DNA from: Reyranella sp. CPCC 100927
GTDB taxonomy: Bacteria > Pseudomonadota > Alphaproteobacteria > Reyranellales > Reyranellaceae
Assembly (NCBI RefSeq): GCF_007859315.1
Contig: NZ_VOHA01000005.1
Span: 310,001 to 374,000 of the forward strand
Direction of reading: 5' to 3'
Length of the DNA stretch: 64,000 nucleotides
Positions 54,138 to 63,541 of this stretch are shown in pieces. The position numbers and the translations under genes are program-made. Below the pieces are notes generated by a model. The model was given only the letters and a program-made list of their open reading frames with translations. It was not told the DNA's origin and made no database searches. Positions within the stretch are counted from its first letter, which is position 1, and the number at the start of each line of letters is the position of its first letter.

Positions 54138-55034
54138 TTAAACCGTTCGCCCCACCACATCCGATGAGCCGTCGTCGGTCGCAGCCGGGGCGTGCAGCCC
54201 TTGCACCGGCGATCCCAGTAGCGCCTTTCGCCGGTCGCCCGCCTGGCGCATGAAGGGCTGCGGTCGCGCGAAATAGCGCCGCGGCGACATCCCCAGGAAG
54301 TAGCGGAATTCCCGGATGAAGTGCGACTGGTCCACGTAGTGCGGATCGATCAACGTGCCCCAGGAACCCGGCGGCACGTCGCGGATGGCCGCGAGCGAGC
54401 GCAGAAAGCGTTGACGCCGCAGCAGGCGCATTGGCCGCAAGCCGAAATAACGCAGGCACAATCGCTCGAGTTGCCGCGTCGACAACGTCAGGCAGGTGGC
54501 CCAGTCCTCCACGGATCGGTTGCCGGCATCGACGAGGGCGGCGTGCGCTTCTCGGACGATCGTGGGTGCCATCGGCCGCGGGGCCAGCCGATCAAGAAGG
54601 TACCGATCAAGGGCTTCGACAACCCCATCACCGTCGGCTAGCGCCCGCAGCATCGGAACCAGATCGCCCGCATGAGGGCCGAATGCATCGGACAGTGGCC
54701 GCAAGCGGTTGGCAAAGGCGTCCGCCGGCTGGCCGGTCAGCTGAACCCATCCTTCCGGAAGGATGCCGATGCCCATGCCGATCCCCGGCGTGCCGTAGGC
54801 AACAAGACCGCGCTCCTGCGTCCCACTGATCGTCGCTTCCGCTACGGGCTGGACTGACTGTCCGAGAATCTTGACCCGCCAACGGCCCGAGAGGACCAAC
54901 CGGATGTTGGCCCACTCCGGCGGAAACATGTCCTCGACGTCATCCGGTCCGGCGATGTGCAGGACATAATAGGTGGAGACAGCGTGACGCAGCGCCGGCG
55001 CCGGCAGAAAGAAGTGGACGGTCGCCTGGGACAT
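54138..55034 (-). CDS. AraC family regulator, twin 1
   Basis: Regulator of 298 aa with an N-terminal effector domain resembling DUF6597/AraC-binding-like (about 1-130, ISGTQERG and GILPEGWVQLTGQPADAF) and a C-terminal two-helix-turn-helix AraC domain (about 165-270, SVEDWATCLTLSTRQLERL and YVDQSHFIREFRYFLGMSPRRYF). By eye it is about three-quarters identical, without gaps, to the gene at 57394-58338. The two lie on the same strand on either side of a core MetE-like and a threonine-dehydratase-like gene. It ends facing the MFS gene. Confidence 0.92.
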   Translation of the reverse strand: MSQATVHFFLPAPALRHAVSTYYVLHIAGPDDVEDMFPPEWANIRLVLSGRWRVKILGQSVQPVAEATISGTQERGLVAYGTPGIGMGIGILPEGWVQLTGQPADAFANRLRPLSDAFGPHAGDLVPMLRALADGDGVVEALDRYLLDRLAPRPMAPTIVREAHAALVDAGNRSVEDWATCLTLSTRQLERLCLRYFGLRPMRLLRRQRFLRSLAAIRDVPPGSWGTLIDPHYVDQSHFIREFRYFLGMSPRRYFARPQPFMRQAGDRRKALLGSPVQGLHAPAATDDGSSDVVGRTV

Positions 55035-57393: not shown

Positions 57394-58338
57394 TCAGCTC
57401 GGCATGTAGCGTGGACCGCGGCGGCCGGCATCCTTGTCGTCCTCGGCCGCCTCCAGATCGGCCACGCGTTGACGCGCGCGCGACGCGGCCGGCGCATGCA
57501 GGATCTGCACGGGTGATCCGAGGAGCGCCTTTCGCCTGTCCCCGGTTTGACGCATGAAGGGTTGCGGGCGCGCGAAAAAGACCCGGGGCGACATGCCCAG
57601 AAAATAATGGCACTCCCGGATGAAATGCGGTTGGTCGACATAGTGCGAGTCGATCAGCATGCTCCACGAGCCCGGCGGCACGTCGCGTATGGCGGCCAGT
57701 GTGCGCAGGAACCGTTGCCGCCGCAGCAGACGTTTCGGTGGCAGGCCGAAGTAGCGCCGGCACAATCGCTCCAATTGACGCGCCGACAGTTTCAGGCTGG
57801 TGGCCCAGTCGTCAACGGAGCGGTTGGCATCATCGAGAAGCGCGGCGTGCGCCTCTCGCACGATCGAGGGTGCTGCCGGCCGCCCCGCCAACCGGTCGAC
57901 GAGATACCGGTCGAGCGCTTCGACGATCTCCTCGTCATCGGCCAACGTGCGCAACGTCGGGACCAGGTGGTCTGCCGCGGCCCCGAATACTGTGGCGAGC
58001 GGCCGCAAGCGCTTCGCGAAGGAGTCGGCGGGCTGTCCGGTCAGCTGTACCCAGCCTTCGGGTAGGATGCCGACGCCGGCGACCAGCCCCGGCGTACCAC
58101 GGACTACCGAACCTCGTTCCTGGGTGCCGCTGATCGCCGCTTCTGCCACGGGCTGGAACGGCTGGCCGAGAATCTTGGCACGCCACCGCCCCGACAGGAC
58201 CAGGCGGATGCTCGCCCACTCCGGCAGAAACATGTCTTCGATGTCGTCCGTCCCGGCGACGGTCATGATTTGGTAGGTCGTGATGGCGTGACGCAACGCG
58301 GGCGCCGGTAGAAACAAGCGGACTGTCGCCCGTGACAT
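57394..58338 (-). CDS. AraC family regulator, twin 2
   Basis: Regulator of 314 aa with the same two domains as twin 1 (effector about 1-130, DNA-binding about 165-270: SVDDWATSLKLSARQLERL and YVDQPHFIRECHYFLGMSPRVFF). It differs from twin 1 mainly in the effector domain and in a longer, charged C terminus (about 290-314, AEDDKDAGRRG). It lies upstream of the dehydratase and MetE-like genes on the same strand with a 102-bp gap, so it is the likelier direct regulator of that pair. The two twins probably arose by duplication. Confidence 0.92.
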   Translation of the reverse strand: MSRATVRLFLPAPALRHAITTYQIMTVAGTDDIEDMFLPEWASIRLVLSGRWRAKILGQPFQPVAEAAISGTQERGSVVRGTPGLVAGVGILPEGWVQLTGQPADSFAKRLRPLATVFGAAADHLVPTLRTLADDEEIVEALDRYLVDRLAGRPAAPSIVREAHAALLDDANRSVDDWATSLKLSARQLERLCRRYFGLPPKRLLRRQRFLRTLAAIRDVPPGSWSMLIDSHYVDQPHFIRECHYFLGMSPRVFFARPQPFMRQTGDRRKALLGSPVQILHAPAASRARQRVADLEAAEDDKDAGRRGPRYMPS

Positions 58339-58465: not shown

Positions 58466-59170
58466 CTATTTCGGCTGACCTGGATAGGCCGGAAACGCGT
58501 CCGCGAGTCCGTCGAACAGCGCGATCATCCGCAGGCGCCACCCATGAACGGCGCTCCCGTGCTCGATAACGTCACGTGGACTGCCCAGGCGGGCCCATTG
58601 CAGGACGGAAAACACGGCGTAGTCGGCATAGGTCGGTCCAGCACCGCCGATGAAAAGCTGCTCCTCCAATGTGTGCTCCAGCGGCACCATCGCCTGGTGA
58701 AACCGGATCAGACCGGCAGCCGGATCGGCACAGGCTTCCTCGAAGGTCATGCCGAGGTCCCGCTCGCGCGACTGCCGGAAATAGGCGCGATCGTCTGCAT
58801 GCAGGCACCAGATGAAGTCGGCGTAGATGACCCGGCGCAACAGCGGCGCCAGCACGGTGTCGCTCCAATTGCTGATGAAACGGGCCATCCCACGGGCCCT
58901 GTCGCCGCCGAACAATGTCGGGCGGTCGGCAAAGCGGTCTTCGAGATGGAGCGCGATACGCCAGCTGTCGTGGATGGCGCGATCACCATCGACCAGAACC
59001 GGCACCATATCCTGGCCGCTCAGCCGCCTGATGATCTCGACGTCGGCGAACCGCACCGCGACATAGTCGGCCGCCACCCCCTTGTGGCGCAGAGCGTAGC
59101 GGACACGCCAGGAGAACGGGCTGGGCCGGCGTCCCTCGTGGCCAACCCGCTCATACAGGGTCAGGGCCAT
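58466..59170 (-). CDS. Glutathione S-transferase, LigE (beta-etherase)-like
   Basis: Soluble GST of 234 aa. N-terminal thioredoxin fold with RPSPFSWRVRYALRHKG and MVPVLVDGDRAIHDSWRIALHLED; the Ser in SPFSWR is the probable glutathione-activating residue and the DSW motif replaces the common ES/DS gamma-glutamyl site. A helical C domain follows (about 95-230). This N-terminal pattern is that of LigE-type beta-etherases and relatives, which cleave aryl ethers in lignin dimers. ATG 59170 was chosen over 59197 because the fold starts MALTLYERV. Substrate unproven. Confidence 0.85.
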   Translation of the reverse strand: MALTLYERVGHEGRRPSPFSWRVRYALRHKGVAADYVAVRFADVEIIRRLSGQDMVPVLVDGDRAIHDSWRIALHLEDRFADRPTLFGGDRARGMARFISNWSDTVLAPLLRRVIYADFIWCLHADDRAYFRQSRERDLGMTFEEACADPAAGLIRFHQAMVPLEHTLEEQLFIGGAGPTYADYAVFSVLQWARLGSPRDVIEHGSAVHGWRLRMIALFDGLADAFPAYPGQPK

Positions 59171-59247
59171 GGCATCCTCACGTCGGAGCGATGCCATGGC
59201 CGAAGCGGTCAGTCACGGCCGCGGCATAGGTGTTTCCATCTGATCTG

Positions 59248-59961
59248 TCATGACCGTCGATGGCCGTCGATGGCAGCCTTGAAGAAACTGACGATCACCG
59301 GATGCGGGCGGCTGAGCGTGCTGGTGAGCTGGGGCACAAACAGCGTCGCCAGGAAGAACCGATGGCGGGGAATCGTGAGGATTCTCGCTTCCCCATCCGC
59401 GTCCTTGCCGACGATCATGAGCCCCGCCTCGTGCAGGCGCTGCTGATGGTCGGGATTCAATCCGAAATTGCAATAGTACTGCTCGGACACCGTCCTCGCG
59501 CCATAGATGGCTTCGGCACGACTGCCCGGTTCGATCCTCACGTCCATCGTCTGGCCGACCAGCGAGCAGGACAGCGGCGTGACGAACAGGTTGGAGGCGT
59601 AGGGATCGTATTCGGCGTGTGCGGCGTCGGTGAAGCCCAGCACATTGCGTGCGTATTCAATGACGACGTGTTGGCAGCCTCCGCATGTGCCCAGCAGCGG
59701 GACATCCCCTTCCCGCGCATAGCGGATCGCATCGAGTGCGCCTGACAGGCTCGCATAGGGACTGCCCGGGGCGATCCAGACCGCATCGAAACCCCGCAGG
59801 CGTTCGGCCGCCCCGCTCTCCAGTGCCGCTGTCGATACCCACTCGATCGCGATGCGCTCTCCCAGCGCCGCTTGCGCGTGGTCGACGGCTTCGTTCGTCT
59901 TGGCGTGGGGAGGAAACGACGGCGTGAACTCGCCGACGATTGCAACCGATATTCTCGTCAT
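59248..59961 (-). CDS. CTP synthase C-terminal-like glutamine amidotransferase-fold protein with CGGC motif
   Basis: Single class I amidotransferase domain of 237 aa, closest to the glutaminase half of CTP synthase (VIEYARNVLGF and HRFFLATLFVPQLTST), with no synthetase half. The nucleophile elbow is GTCGGCQH: Cys93 occupies the usual nucleophile position and Cys96 gives a CGGC motif. The catalytic His and Glu of CTP synthase FHPEF are replaced (Val209, Gln211), so glutaminase activity is unlikely. Proteins of this type are described in databases as CTP-synthase C-terminal-related (seleno)proteins, which fits a thiol or selenol role. Divergent from a LysR gene with a 91-bp gap. Confidence 0.85.
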   Translation of the reverse strand: MTRISVAIVGEFTPSFPPHAKTNEAVDHAQAALGERIAIEWVSTAALESGAAERLRGFDAVWIAPGSPYASLSGALDAIRYAREGDVPLLGTCGGCQHVVIEYARNVLGFTDAAHAEYDPYASNLFVTPLSCSLVGQTMDVRIEPGSRAEAIYGARTVSEQYYCNFGLNPDHQQRLHEAGLMIVGKDADGEARILTIPRHRFFLATLFVPQLTSTLSRPHPVIVSFFKAAIDGHRRS

Positions 59962-60028
59962 CGCTATCTACCACCAGGTCTTTCGATTGTCGTGGCCTTG
60001 AACCTGGATTCTGGGTTGATATAAGTAA

Positions 60029-60049
60029 AATGACTTTGAAAGCATCATT
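60029..60049. promoter_or_regulatory. Possible LysR box AATGA-N11-TCATT
   Basis: AATGACTTTGAAAGCATCAT T: 5-bp arms with an 11-bp centre that contains the small palindrome CTTTGAAAG. It sits in an AT-rich 91-bp divergent region, ending 3 bp before the LysR ATG at 60053. Position and shape fit an autoregulatory site. Confidence 0.3.
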
Positions 60050-60052
60050 GAT

Positions 60053-60937
60053 ATGACTAATACTAATGTCTCTCTGTCTCATCTTCGCGTGCTGAACACG
60101 GCCATCGAAAAAGGAAGCTTTTCGGCAGCCGCGGAAGAGATCGGCATCACGCAGTCTGGTGTGAGCCAGAGCATCAAGCATCTTGAGGCAACCCTGGGGG
60201 CTCAGCTGCTCATCCGGCACCGCGACGGCGTTGCGCCGACCGAGCTGGGCAAGGCGGTGCTTGCCGACGCCCGGCTCGCGCTCCAGGCCATCGAGCGCAT
60301 CCGGCAGGCCTGCAGCGCTGCCAAAGGCGTGCCGTCGGGCCGGATCCGTCTCGGCAGCATCTCGAGCGTCGCCGCGCGGATGCTGCCGTCCATCCTGGCG
60401 CGATTCCGCCGGCAGTATCCCGGCGTCAAGATTGATCTCATCGAAGGCACTGAGACCGAGATTGGCGAGTGGGTCGAGAACGCGGTCGTCGATTTAGGAT
60501 TGACGGGAGAGACGACGCCGAACGTGCTGGCCTCGCCTGTAGCGGAAGACGACTTCGTCCTGGTCGTCGGCGCCAAGCACCGCCTGGCCGGGCGGCGCTT
60601 CATCCGGCCGGCAGACATCGCACAGGAATCGTTCTTGATGTCGACCTCGGGTTGCGAGCCGGCCATACGCCGGATCTTCGGCGCGGCCAACATTAATCCT
60701 CCCATCGCCTTTCGCGTGCGCGACCCGGAAGCGCTGGTGAACATGGTCGGCCAGGGGCTCGGCGTGACGATCATGCCACAGCTCTCCATCCCCGACAGGG
60801 TGCGGGGAGTAGTTTGCGTCTCGATCCAACCGCGCCAGGAACGCCGGATCGTCGCGATCACAAGCTCTGATCAACCCGAGATGCCGGCCGTCGAGATCTT
60901 GAAAGTGATGCTCATGAGGGGCAAGAACGCAGGGTAG
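60053..60937 (+). CDS. LysR family transcriptional regulator
   Basis: Regulator of 294 aa: winged helix at 1-60 (SFSAAAEEIGITQSGVSQSIKHLE), effector domain about 88-290 with the typical GVTIMPQLSIP pocket segment. Divergent from the CTP-synthase-like gene, so that gene is a likely target. The ABC transporter operon starts 143 bp downstream on the same strand and could also be controlled by it. Confidence 0.93.
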   Translation: MTNTNVSLSHLRVLNTAIEKGSFSAAAEEIGITQSGVSQSIKHLEATLGAQLLIRHRDGVAPTELGKAVLADARLALQAIERIRQACSAAKGVPSGRIRLGSISSVAARMLPSILARFRRQYPGVKIDLIEGTETEIGEWVENAVVDLGLTGETTPNVLASPVAEDDFVLVVGAKHRLAGRRFIRPADIAQESFLMSTSGCEPAIRRIFGAANINPPIAFRVRDPEALVNMVGQGLGVTIMPQLSIPDRVRGVVCVSIQPRQERRIVAITSSDQPEMPAVEILKVMLMRGKNAG

Positions 60938-61080
60938 CTCGCAGCGCTCGCGTCTTGATCGAATGGGAGGTCGCCGGCCTCACCGGCGAATGGCACGCTG
61001 TGTGCACCCGCGATAGGGTGACTTGAGCCGACACAGTTGATGTGCTTGGCTCCCGACCCGGGAAATCAGGGGGACTCACC

Positions 61081-61938
61081 ATGATACGACTCATTCACCG
61101 CGCCGTTCTGGCGGGCGCCAGCCTGCTGCTTGCGACCGGGAGCGTCGTGGCACAAGCTGACAAGCCGATCACTGTCGGCCTCGACGGCACGTTCGCGCCG
61201 CATGCCATGCCCAAGGTCGGCGGCAAACCGGGCGAGGTTGAGGGTTTCAATGTCGATCTGGCGAACGAGATCGCCAAGCGTCTGAAGCGGCCGATCAATG
61301 TCGTGGCGCAGGAGTTCTCGGGCCTGATCCCGGCGCTCAACGCCGGCCGCTTCGACTGGCTCGCAGCCCCCACCACCGTAACGCCCGAACGGGCGAAGAA
61401 CCTGCTGTTCACCGAGGGCTATCTCAACACGTATTATCAGCTCCTGCTCAAGAAGAGCACGCCCGACATCACCAGGATTGAGGACCTCAAGGGCAAGAAG
61501 CTCACGGTCAACAAGGGCTCGGCCTATGACAAGTGGGCCGATCTCAACAAGGAAAAGTACGGCTTCGAGGTGCTGGCCTTCCCGACCCAGACCGACTCGG
61601 TGCAGGCGGTGATGGCGGGCCGCGCCGATGCCAACCTCGGCGGCAACACCGTGGTCGCCTGGGCGGCGAAACAGAATCCGACGCTGAAGCTGGGCGCCAA
61701 GGTCGATGAAGGGTTGATGTGGGCGGCACCGTTTCGCAAGGACGATGTCGCCGGCCGCAATCAGGTCGAAAACGCTCTCGAATGCCTGAAGCTTGACGGC
61801 ACCATCGCCCGGCTGCACGAAAAGTGGTTCGGCATCAAACCCGAACCCGGCTCGGCGGCTGTGACAGTCTTCAAGGGCTATGGTGTACCCGGCACCGAGG
61901 GGCATGACCCGACTGAGCACACGCCGCAGTGCGGCTGA
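61081..61938 (+). CDS. ABC transporter substrate-binding protein (polar amino acid type)
   Basis: Periplasmic binding protein of 285 aa. Signal peptide about 1-24 (hydrophobic AVLAGASLLLATGSVVAQA, cleavage after AQA). The family 3 binding domain has GFNVDLANEIAKRLKRPI near 57-74 and a C-terminal LEKWFGI-like LHEKWFGIKPEPG. It binds an amino acid or related compound. ATG 61081 with GGGGGACTC upstream is preferred to an in-frame ATG 39 bp earlier that would spoil the signal peptide. First gene of a transporter operon. Confidence 0.93.
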   Translation: MIRLIHRAVLAGASLLLATGSVVAQADKPITVGLDGTFAPHAMPKVGGKPGEVEGFNVDLANEIAKRLKRPINVVAQEFSGLIPALNAGRFDWLAAPTTVTPERAKNLLFTEGYLNTYYQLLLKKSTPDITRIEDLKGKKLTVNKGSAYDKWADLNKEKYGFEVLAFPTQTDSVQAVMAGRADANLGGNTVVAWAAKQNPTLKLGAKVDEGLMWAAPFRKDDVAGRNQVENALECLKLDGTIARLHEKWFGIKPEPGSAAVTVFKGYGVPGTEGHDPTEHTPQCG

Positions 61939-61958
61939 GGCGAGTTGATGCTCGGACG

Positions 61959-62711
61959 ATGACAGCGATCGACCGCCCCATCCTCGAGGTGCAGGGCCTA
62001 CGCAAGAGCTTCGGCGCGGTCGAGGTGCTCAAGGGCATCGACTTCCGTCTGCGCGAGCGCGAACTGGCGTTCATCATCGGACCGTCGGGCTCGGGCAAGA
62101 GCACGTTCCTGCGCTGCTGCAATCGCCTGGAGGAACCCAGCAGCGGCGCCATCCGCGTCGACGGCACCGATATCCTGGCGCACGGCGTCGACATCAACGC
62201 AGTGCGCCGGCGGATCGGCATGGTGTTCCAGTCCTTCAATCTCTATCCGCACATGACAGCCTTGGGTAACGTGACGCTGGCGTTGCGACTGGCGTCGCGT
62301 AAATCCAAGGCTGAAGCCACGGATATCGGACAGGCGGCGCTGGCGCGGGTCGGTCTTGCGGAAAAGGCGCACGCCTATCCGGGCGAGCTCAGCGGCGGCC
62401 AGCAGCAGCGCGTCGCTATCGCACGGGCCCTGGCCCTGGAACCCAAGATCGTGCTGTTCGATGAGCCGACCAGTGCGCTCGACCCGGAACTGGTGGGATC
62501 CGTGCTGCAGGTCATGCGCGACCTGCGCGAGGCCGGCATGACGATGCTGGTGGTCAGCCACGAACTGCAGTTCGCGCGTGCAGCGGCCGATCGCGTCGTC
62601 TTCATGGAAGATGGCGTGATCGTCGAGCAAGGGCCGCCGGCGCAGATCTTCGGCGACCCGCAGCAGGCCCGTACGCGGGCGTTCGTGGCGCGCATCGACG
62701 GACATCGGTGA
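61959..62711 (+). CDS. Amino acid ABC transporter ATP-binding protein
   Basis: ATPase of 250 aa of the GlnQ/HisP group. Walker A GPSGSGKST (about 37-45), Q-loop MVFQSFNLYPH, signature LSGGQQQR, Walker B VLFDEPTSALDPE, switch His in VVSHELQFA. It energises uptake with the two permeases. ATG 61959 is used; GTG 61929 in frame would overlap the binding-protein stop. A structured repeat separates it from the first permease. Confidence 0.93.
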   Translation: MTAIDRPILEVQGLRKSFGAVEVLKGIDFRLRERELAFIIGPSGSGKSTFLRCCNRLEEPSSGAIRVDGTDILAHGVDINAVRRRIGMVFQSFNLYPHMTALGNVTLALRLASRKSKAEATDIGQAALARVGLAEKAHAYPGELSGGQQQRVAIARALALEPKIVLFDEPTSALDPELVGSVLQVMRDLREAGMTMLVVSHELQFARAAADRVVFMEDGVIVEQGPPAQIFGDPQQARTRAFVARIDGHR

Positions 62712-62720
62712 TGTTTCTTG

Positions 62721-62820
62721 GGACTGCGGGCGTCCACGCCCGCAGTCGCCCGAAGCGTGAGCGAAGGGCGACCTCATGTTCGGCGCTCCGCGCCGATGCG
62801 GGCGTGGACGCCCGCGGTCC
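62721..62820. repeat. Multi-hairpin inverted-repeat element inside the ABC operon
   Basis: 24-bp terminal inverted repeats (62721-62744 and 62797-62820; arm starts GGACTGCGGGCGTCCACGCC) with one mismatch. Inside are two hairpins: GTCGCCC/GGGCGAC (about 62744-62771) and TCGGCGC/GCGCCGA (about 62780-62796). Each arm is itself nearly palindromic. It occupies the gap between ATPase and permease. Overall plan is like the element at 4781-4895, but the sequence differs. Confidence 0.75.
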
Positions 62821-62836
62821 GAAATAGGATGAGTCC

Positions 62837-63541
62837 ATGGATCGCTTCCTCTTTACGTTTTTCAACGGCGAGGTGATGTGGGAGTACCTGCCCAAGATCC
62901 TCTCGGGCATGTGGGTCACGACTTATCTCGCCGCTTTCGTCATCGTCACCGGTCTCGCGTTGGGCCTGCTGCTGGCCCTATTGCGCTCTATCCTGTCACA
63001 AACGATGCCGGCGCCGTTGTCGTGGCTGGCCGAGGCCGTGCGGCTGCTGATCATCTTCTTCGTGGACCTGATGCGCTCGGTGCCGCCGCTGGTCCTGATC
63101 GTGCTGTTCTTCTACGGCCTGCCGGCCTTGGGCCTCGACATTGCCGGCCTGGGCGCAACCTGGTTGGCGCTGTCGCTGGTGCTGGCAGCGTTCGCCGAGG
63201 AGATCTACTGGGCGGGCTTGGTCGCCGTCGCCAAGGGACAATGGGAAGCCGCGCGCTCGACCGGGCTGGGATTCCTCCAGACCCTGCTCTACGTGATCCT
63301 GCCGCAGGCGATCCGGTTGACCATACCCCCGCTCACCAACCGCACCATCGCCATCACCAAGGGTACGGCGCTGGGTCAGGTCGTGGCGGTGCAGGAGATC
63401 CTGTATCAGGCCTATAGCGGCCTTTCGTTTTCGTCCAATCCCTCGCCGCTGACCCTGGGCGCACTCGCCTATCTCGCGCTGTTCCTGCCCGTGGTTGTCG
63501 TCGGGCGCTGGATCGAGACGCGCTTCGCGTGGCGTCGGTGA
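62837..63541 (+). CDS. Amino acid ABC transporter permease, first subunit
   Basis: Inner-membrane protein of 234 aa of the HisM/GlnP family with about five helices. The EAA loop that contacts the ATPase reads AKGQWEAARSTGLGFLQTLLYVILPQAIR (about 134-162). It pairs with the next gene to form a heterodimeric channel. ATG 62837 lies 16 bp after the repeat, whose end may include its ribosome-binding region (AGGATGAG). Confidence 0.93.
   Translation: MDRFLFTFFNGEVMWEYLPKILSGMWVTTYLAAFVIVTGLALGLLLALLRSILSQTMPAPLSWLAEAVRLLIIFFVDLMRSVPPLVLIVLFFYGLPALGLDIAGLGATWLALSLVLAAFAEEIYWAGLVAVAKGQWEAARSTGLGFLQTLLYVILPQAIRLTIPPLTNRTIAITKGTALGQVVAVQEILYQAYSGLSFSSNPSPLTLGALAYLALFLPVVVVGRWIETRFAWRR

Follow-up and report, generated by a model that had tools for sequence, protein, structure and literature searches.

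A (seleno)protein family with the fold of the CTP synthase glutaminase domain, a lost catalytic histidine and three new invariant residues

The 64,000-nucleotide stretch of Reyranella DNA analysed here (the window) encodes a stand-alone relative of the glutaminase domain of CTP synthase, in whose family the catalytic histidine is gone throughout, the nucleophile position holds cysteine or selenocysteine (Sec), and one histidine and two cysteines foreign to CTP synthase are invariant; a LysR-type regulator recurs beside the gene. The chemistry of the family is most likely thiol- or selenol-based, its main rival being that of a hydrolase with a relocated base. His19, Cys132 and Cys164 are invariant partners that the original prediction, a first reading of the sequence, had overlooked; together with Cys93 (or Sec93) and the LysR partner they supply, for this (seleno)protein family, a small set of mutants to test and a regulon. 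The features of the locus are collected in Table 1.

Table 1. Features of the family gene and its surroundings in the window.
Feature	Position	Strand	Basis
NF004836 type A (FVPQ) protein, stand-alone, CTP-synthase-GAT-like	59248..59961	minus	237 aa, ATG start
Codon of His19; 77/77; Tyr in CTP synthase	59905..59907	minus	alignment
PGSPY (65-69), in place of oxyanion-hole/lid GGFG	59755..59769	minus	alignment
Codon of Cys93 (TGC), nucleophile elbow; TGA/Sec in four relatives	59683..59685	minus	sequence and alignment
Codon of Cys96 (TGC); family-variable	59674..59676	minus	alignment
Codon of Cys132; 77/77; Gly in CTP synthase	59566..59568	minus	alignment
Codon of Cys164; 77/77; within EQYYCNFG replacing ERHRHRYE	59470..59472	minus	alignment
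F-V-P-Q (208-211), where CTP synthase has F-H-P-E	59329..59340	minus	alignment
LysR-type regulator, divergent; homologues adjoin family members in four phyla	60053..60937	plus	neighbourhood comparison
Divergent promoter region, 91 bp, between family gene and LysR	59962..60052		gap between ORFs
Glutathione S-transferase-like gene, 50 bp downstream of family gene, same strand	58466..59197	minus	neighbourhood comparison

Family membership and relation to CTP synthase

The window protein scores 305.1 bits against the NCBIfam profile NF004836, over model positions 1-227 of 228, where the curated cut-off is at least 260 bits across the whole model; it thus belongs, as had been proposed, to the family named 'CTP synthase C-terminal region-related (seleno)protein' (NF004836 / PRK06186). 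This is a named, uncharacterised family, of which the window protein is one more cysteine-containing member: it shares the whole length, all invariants and the elbow (GTCGG, of the form GxC/UxG, with TGC at codon 93), and the sole difference is an extra cysteine, Cys96, common to few relatives. The literature found names the family merely as a predicted selenoprotein and gives no function. Among Pfam profiles, PF00117 (class I GATase) is matched with 37.1 bits (gathering score 22.8), and the DJ-1/PfpI profile PF01965 is absent among the matches at E<=1. A role in anti-phage defence was considered and dropped, as PADLOC gave no match.

The likeness to CTP synthase in its glutaminase half, originally noticed by eye, is not due to chance. 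In a phmmer comparison the window protein aligns with residues 294-532 of PDB 3nva at E=3e-31; the NCBIfam PyrG profile scores it at 139.5 bits over model positions 290-526 (cut-off 462.75), below a full-length score and without the synthase domain; and its predicted model (pLDDT 97.1) yields query TM-scores of mostly 0.85-0.93 against CTP synthase GAT domains, the structural alignments showing about 25-32% identity. The same genome encodes a full-length CTP synthase as a separate gene, at a distance of about 159 kb on this contig. The window protein retains the fold of the PyrG glutaminase domain (TM up to 0.93), the cysteine nucleophile, Gln97, and Glu117, which aligns with CTP synthase Glu403.

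Residues lost and residues gained

Homologues were gathered from genome contigs and five phylum samples, and 77 of them were aligned with CTP synthases. They fall into two types: type A, ending in F-V-P-Q (the window, Methylococcales, several actinomycetes, cyanobacteria, planctomycetes, and others), and type B, ending in F-Q-P-E or F-Q-H-E (enterobacterial and other proteobacterial genomes, some actinomycetes and acidobacteria). Position 209, occupied by His515 in CTP synthase, is V, Q, M, or L and never His (0/77); position 211, occupied by Glu517, is still Glu in type B (33/77) and has been lost in type A. The window protein, with Val209 and Gln211, therefore has no Cys-His-Glu triad of the PyrG kind, and the motifs first read from the DNA, FVPQ at 208-211 and GTCGGCQH with Cys93 and Cys96 (both TGC), are confirmed on the ORF sequence. 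The claim that the catalytic His and Glu are lost stands for the histidine throughout, and for the glutamate in type A only. A displaced but intact His/Glu pair near FVPQ is rejected for the family as a whole, a histidine one residue later (FQHE, enterobacterial) being found in only 8 of the 77.

The remainder of the site has changed as well. PxSPY stands where CTP synthase has the oxyanion-hole/lid motif GGFG, and the GTP- and glutamine-binding arginines R429 and R470 are lost; the R429 column is mostly A/V, and the R470 column holds N/S/R/A/H/K, with R470 lost in most members. Invariant in all 77 are His19, Trp41, Arg83, Cys93 (as Cys or Sec), Gly95, Gln97, Cys132, and Cys164; nearly so are PxSPY (65-69), His98 (73 members), Glu117 (76), and Arg193 (76). 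Three of the invariants, His19, Cys132, and Cys164, are new to the family, with Tyr, Gly, and His as their equivalents in CTP synthase; in the predicted model, His19 lies just past strand 1, in the opening turn of helix 1. By alignment, Arg429 maps to position 135, Arg470 to Asn165, and the L11 lid to the PxSPY segment. In E. coli CTP synthase, Arg429, Arg470, and L11 form the lining of a single cleft that adjoins the glutaminase site (PMC9138612), so that the new residues probably face this cleft too. Cys132 and Cys164, in loops that flank the GTP/glutamine cleft in CTP synthase, probably border the same cleft as Cys93.

The elbow cysteines and selenocysteine forms

The original prediction had taken the CxxC formed by Cys93 and Cys96 as a sign of redox, metal, or persulfide chemistry. 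Position 96 is, however, Cys in only 9 of the 77 homologues and Phe in 61, including all four Sec forms; the CxxC is thus a local feature, a mechanism shared by the family cannot rest on the pair 93/96, and the candidacy of this pair as the active site is rejected. From thioredoxin-type CxxC oxidoreductases the family differs in its fold and in the second cysteine, which is not conserved across NF004836, CGGC being limited to the window protein and a few relatives. Of the two elbow cysteines, Cys93 is the reactive residue. Of the chemistry suggested earlier, the thiol or selenol part is plausible, and the CxxC as its basis falls away.

Four homologues carry one in-frame TGA each, exactly at position 93, which answers the earlier suggestion to look for Sec at either elbow cysteine. 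They belong to Actinomycetota (L107 and L108, from the phylum sample of an actinomycete), Acidobacteriota (L121, from that of an Acidobacteriaceae MAG), and Bacillota (L147, from that of a Gracilibacillus); their placement in the tree is rough. All four show a SECIS-like hairpin that starts about 14-15 nt downstream of the first base of the TGA, with a z-score of -2.0 against shuffles in L108, the sole case so tested, and all retain His19, Cys132, and Cys164. Matches to tRNA-Sec above the Rfam gathering score were found in the genomes of these homologues, G511 (84.5 bits), G651 (77.5 bits), G1213 (71.9 bits), and G883 (51.0 bits), the last of these a weaker case, as it barely exceeds the cut-off of 47 and occurs twice. 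A GxUxG motif has been listed for the family (PMC13188914) and deep-Sep has predicted it to be a selenoprotein (PMC12013277); both agree with Sec at position 93, and the present finding extends them to other phyla. The window gene itself has no in-frame TGA at the nucleophile. Its genome contains a strong tRNA-Sec match (72.9 bits at G000:C35:29548-29639, minus strand), so the organism probably uses selenocysteine, though its family gene uses Cys.

Genomic surroundings

Of 64 loci, 19 have a LysR gene adjoining the family gene; these come from Pseudomonadota, Actinomycetota, Bacillota, and Cyanobacteriota. The usual arrangement is divergent, the two genes lying about 20-240 bp apart; in actinomycetes the LysR gene abuts the family gene directly downstream on the same strand. 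The LysR protein of the window is 34-44% identical to those of other type A loci, and the LysR proteins of type B loci are more distant, with the same divergent layout of their genes. At the Sec loci L133-L135 that were examined, no LysR gene lies beside the family gene. A search of the intergenic region of the window for a LysR-box palindrome yielded nothing convincing. Among NCBIfam profiles, the window LysR best matches NF040786 (selenium metabolism-associated LysR), but its 137 bits fall short of the cut-off of 250 bits.

A conserved operon partner as a clue to the substrate was sought and rejected, LysR alone being recurrent. The other neighbours are locally restricted (GST, methyltransferase, alpha/beta-hydrolase, DJ-1/PfpI, PhzF, SMP-30, DHDPS, EamA, MFS, DUF523, and aminotransferase) and, since they vary, indicate no consistent substrate. 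The GST-like gene of the window was not seen beside the other family members examined. A 2-thiouracil-desulfurase (DUF523) gene takes the divergent place in enterobacterial loci and is confined to that one group. In a planctomycete MAG, a DJ-1/PfpI gene begins just downstream of the family gene (L016:1319-1918, plus strand). In the window, genes for a polar amino-acid type ABC transporter (binding protein, ATPase, permease; 61042-63541, plus strand) follow the LysR gene on the same strand; such genes were not seen beside the family gene at other loci with neighbours examined. Two similar regulator-like ORFs of one sequence cluster (54138-55034 and 57394-58338, both minus strand) flank one methionine-synthase-like and one serine/threonine dehydratase-like gene.

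Proposed mechanism and alternatives

Our reading, held tentatively, a little short of calling it probable, is that a CTP synthase glutaminase domain was re-purposed as a small-molecule thiol/selenol enzyme and not as a glutaminase, with Cys/Sec93 tuned by His19 and with Cys132 and Cys164 as resolving thiols. The ancestral domain would have become stand-alone and, its classical base gone, would use the elbow residue Cys93, or Sec93 in some relatives, as nucleophile; the Cys93 thiolate would probably be tuned by His19 from its place at the head of helix 1, and Cys132 and Cys164 would probably resolve or accept Cys93 in an oxidised or thio-bound state. The substrate would be a small molecule and, given that Glu117 is kept, might still resemble an amino acid, though glutamine would not be bound in the manner of CTP synthase; the adjacent LysR probably controls expression. 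In this we infer the proximity of the residues, the redox or thiol-transfer chemistry, and the class of substrate; Sec at position 93 by itself does not prove redox chemistry. If true, this would mean that an old hydrolase scaffold, with a Sec nucleophile, had been turned to a new catalytic use in redox or thiol-transfer reactions. The wider proposal, of a new thiol/selenol oxidoreductase or thiol-transfer class on the class I amidotransferase fold, built on Cys/Sec93, Cys132, Cys164, and His19 in a gutted CTP synthase glutaminase site and spread horizontally, often with its own LysR, is possible but on the whole doubtful.

The same residues could serve a cysteine hydrolase or hydratase whose base has been relocated, in which Cys93 attacks, His19 (or His98) acts as acid/base, and redox is not needed; we consider this unlikely, but a serious contender. 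By shared superfamily fold topology, the acidic partner of the elbow cysteine in the DJ-1 group lies in the turn between strand 1 and helix 1, the very site of His19, which is absolutely conserved here and a tyrosine in CTP synthase; the elbow, Gln97, and Glu117 are retained, and most members have His98. Isocyanide hydratase of the DJ-1 superfamily works through Cys101 with Asp17 as acid/base (PMC10971408). It would be the closest analogue in operation, with a related fold class, an elbow cysteine, a partner from the strand1-helix1 turn, and no classical triad; the family differs from it in the missing Pfam-level match to DJ-1/PfpI, in His19 standing for Asp/Glu, and in the extra conserved cysteines. 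Two further invariant cysteines would be left unexplained by such a hydrolase, and Sec is rare in hydrolases. Three invariant cysteines and an invariant histidine, all family-specific, would also suit a metal-binding site, or one for carrying persulfide or selenide, made up of Cys93, Cys132, Cys164, and His19, and the desulfurase gene of the enterobacterial loci would fit; its restriction to one group, the absence of a known metal motif, and the fact that Sec as a metal ligand is known from few enzyme groups make this quite improbable.

That the protein is still a working glutaminase or amidotransferase whose base is weaker or has been substituted (Gln209/Glu211 in type B) is very unlikely: the fold, Cys93, Gln97, and Glu117 are kept, as is the glutamate of type B, and public annotation reads glutamine amidotransferase or CTP synthase, but His never occurs at 209, type A is without both residues, the oxyanion-hole motif is replaced, R470 is mostly lost, and no conserved partner synthase gene is found among the loci. 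Triad loss, and the fact that the genome encodes CTP synthase separately, would agree with a pseudoenzyme that merely binds a ligand or regulates CTP synthase; against this, which we hold to be most improbable, a costly Sec at the nucleophile position and the absolute conservation of that position argue for catalysis.

Distribution and annotation

The family is widespread. Among 398 sampled genomes of the window's phylum, 27 carry it (E<=1e-50), 24 of these above the cut-off; among 61 close relatives, two have a member above the cut-off. This patchy spread is consistent with horizontal transfer. In public records the family is often labelled 'CTP synthase' or glutamine amidotransferase; in the Klebsiella records L129, L130, and L132, the gene is annotated 'CTP synthase' and adjoins DUF523, DUF488, and a CynX/NimT transporter. 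One type B copy, L081, has an in-frame TAG and is probably a pseudogene or a sequencing error. One Klebsiella record, CP125156.1 (5.4 Mb), resembles a chromosome filed as a plasmid.
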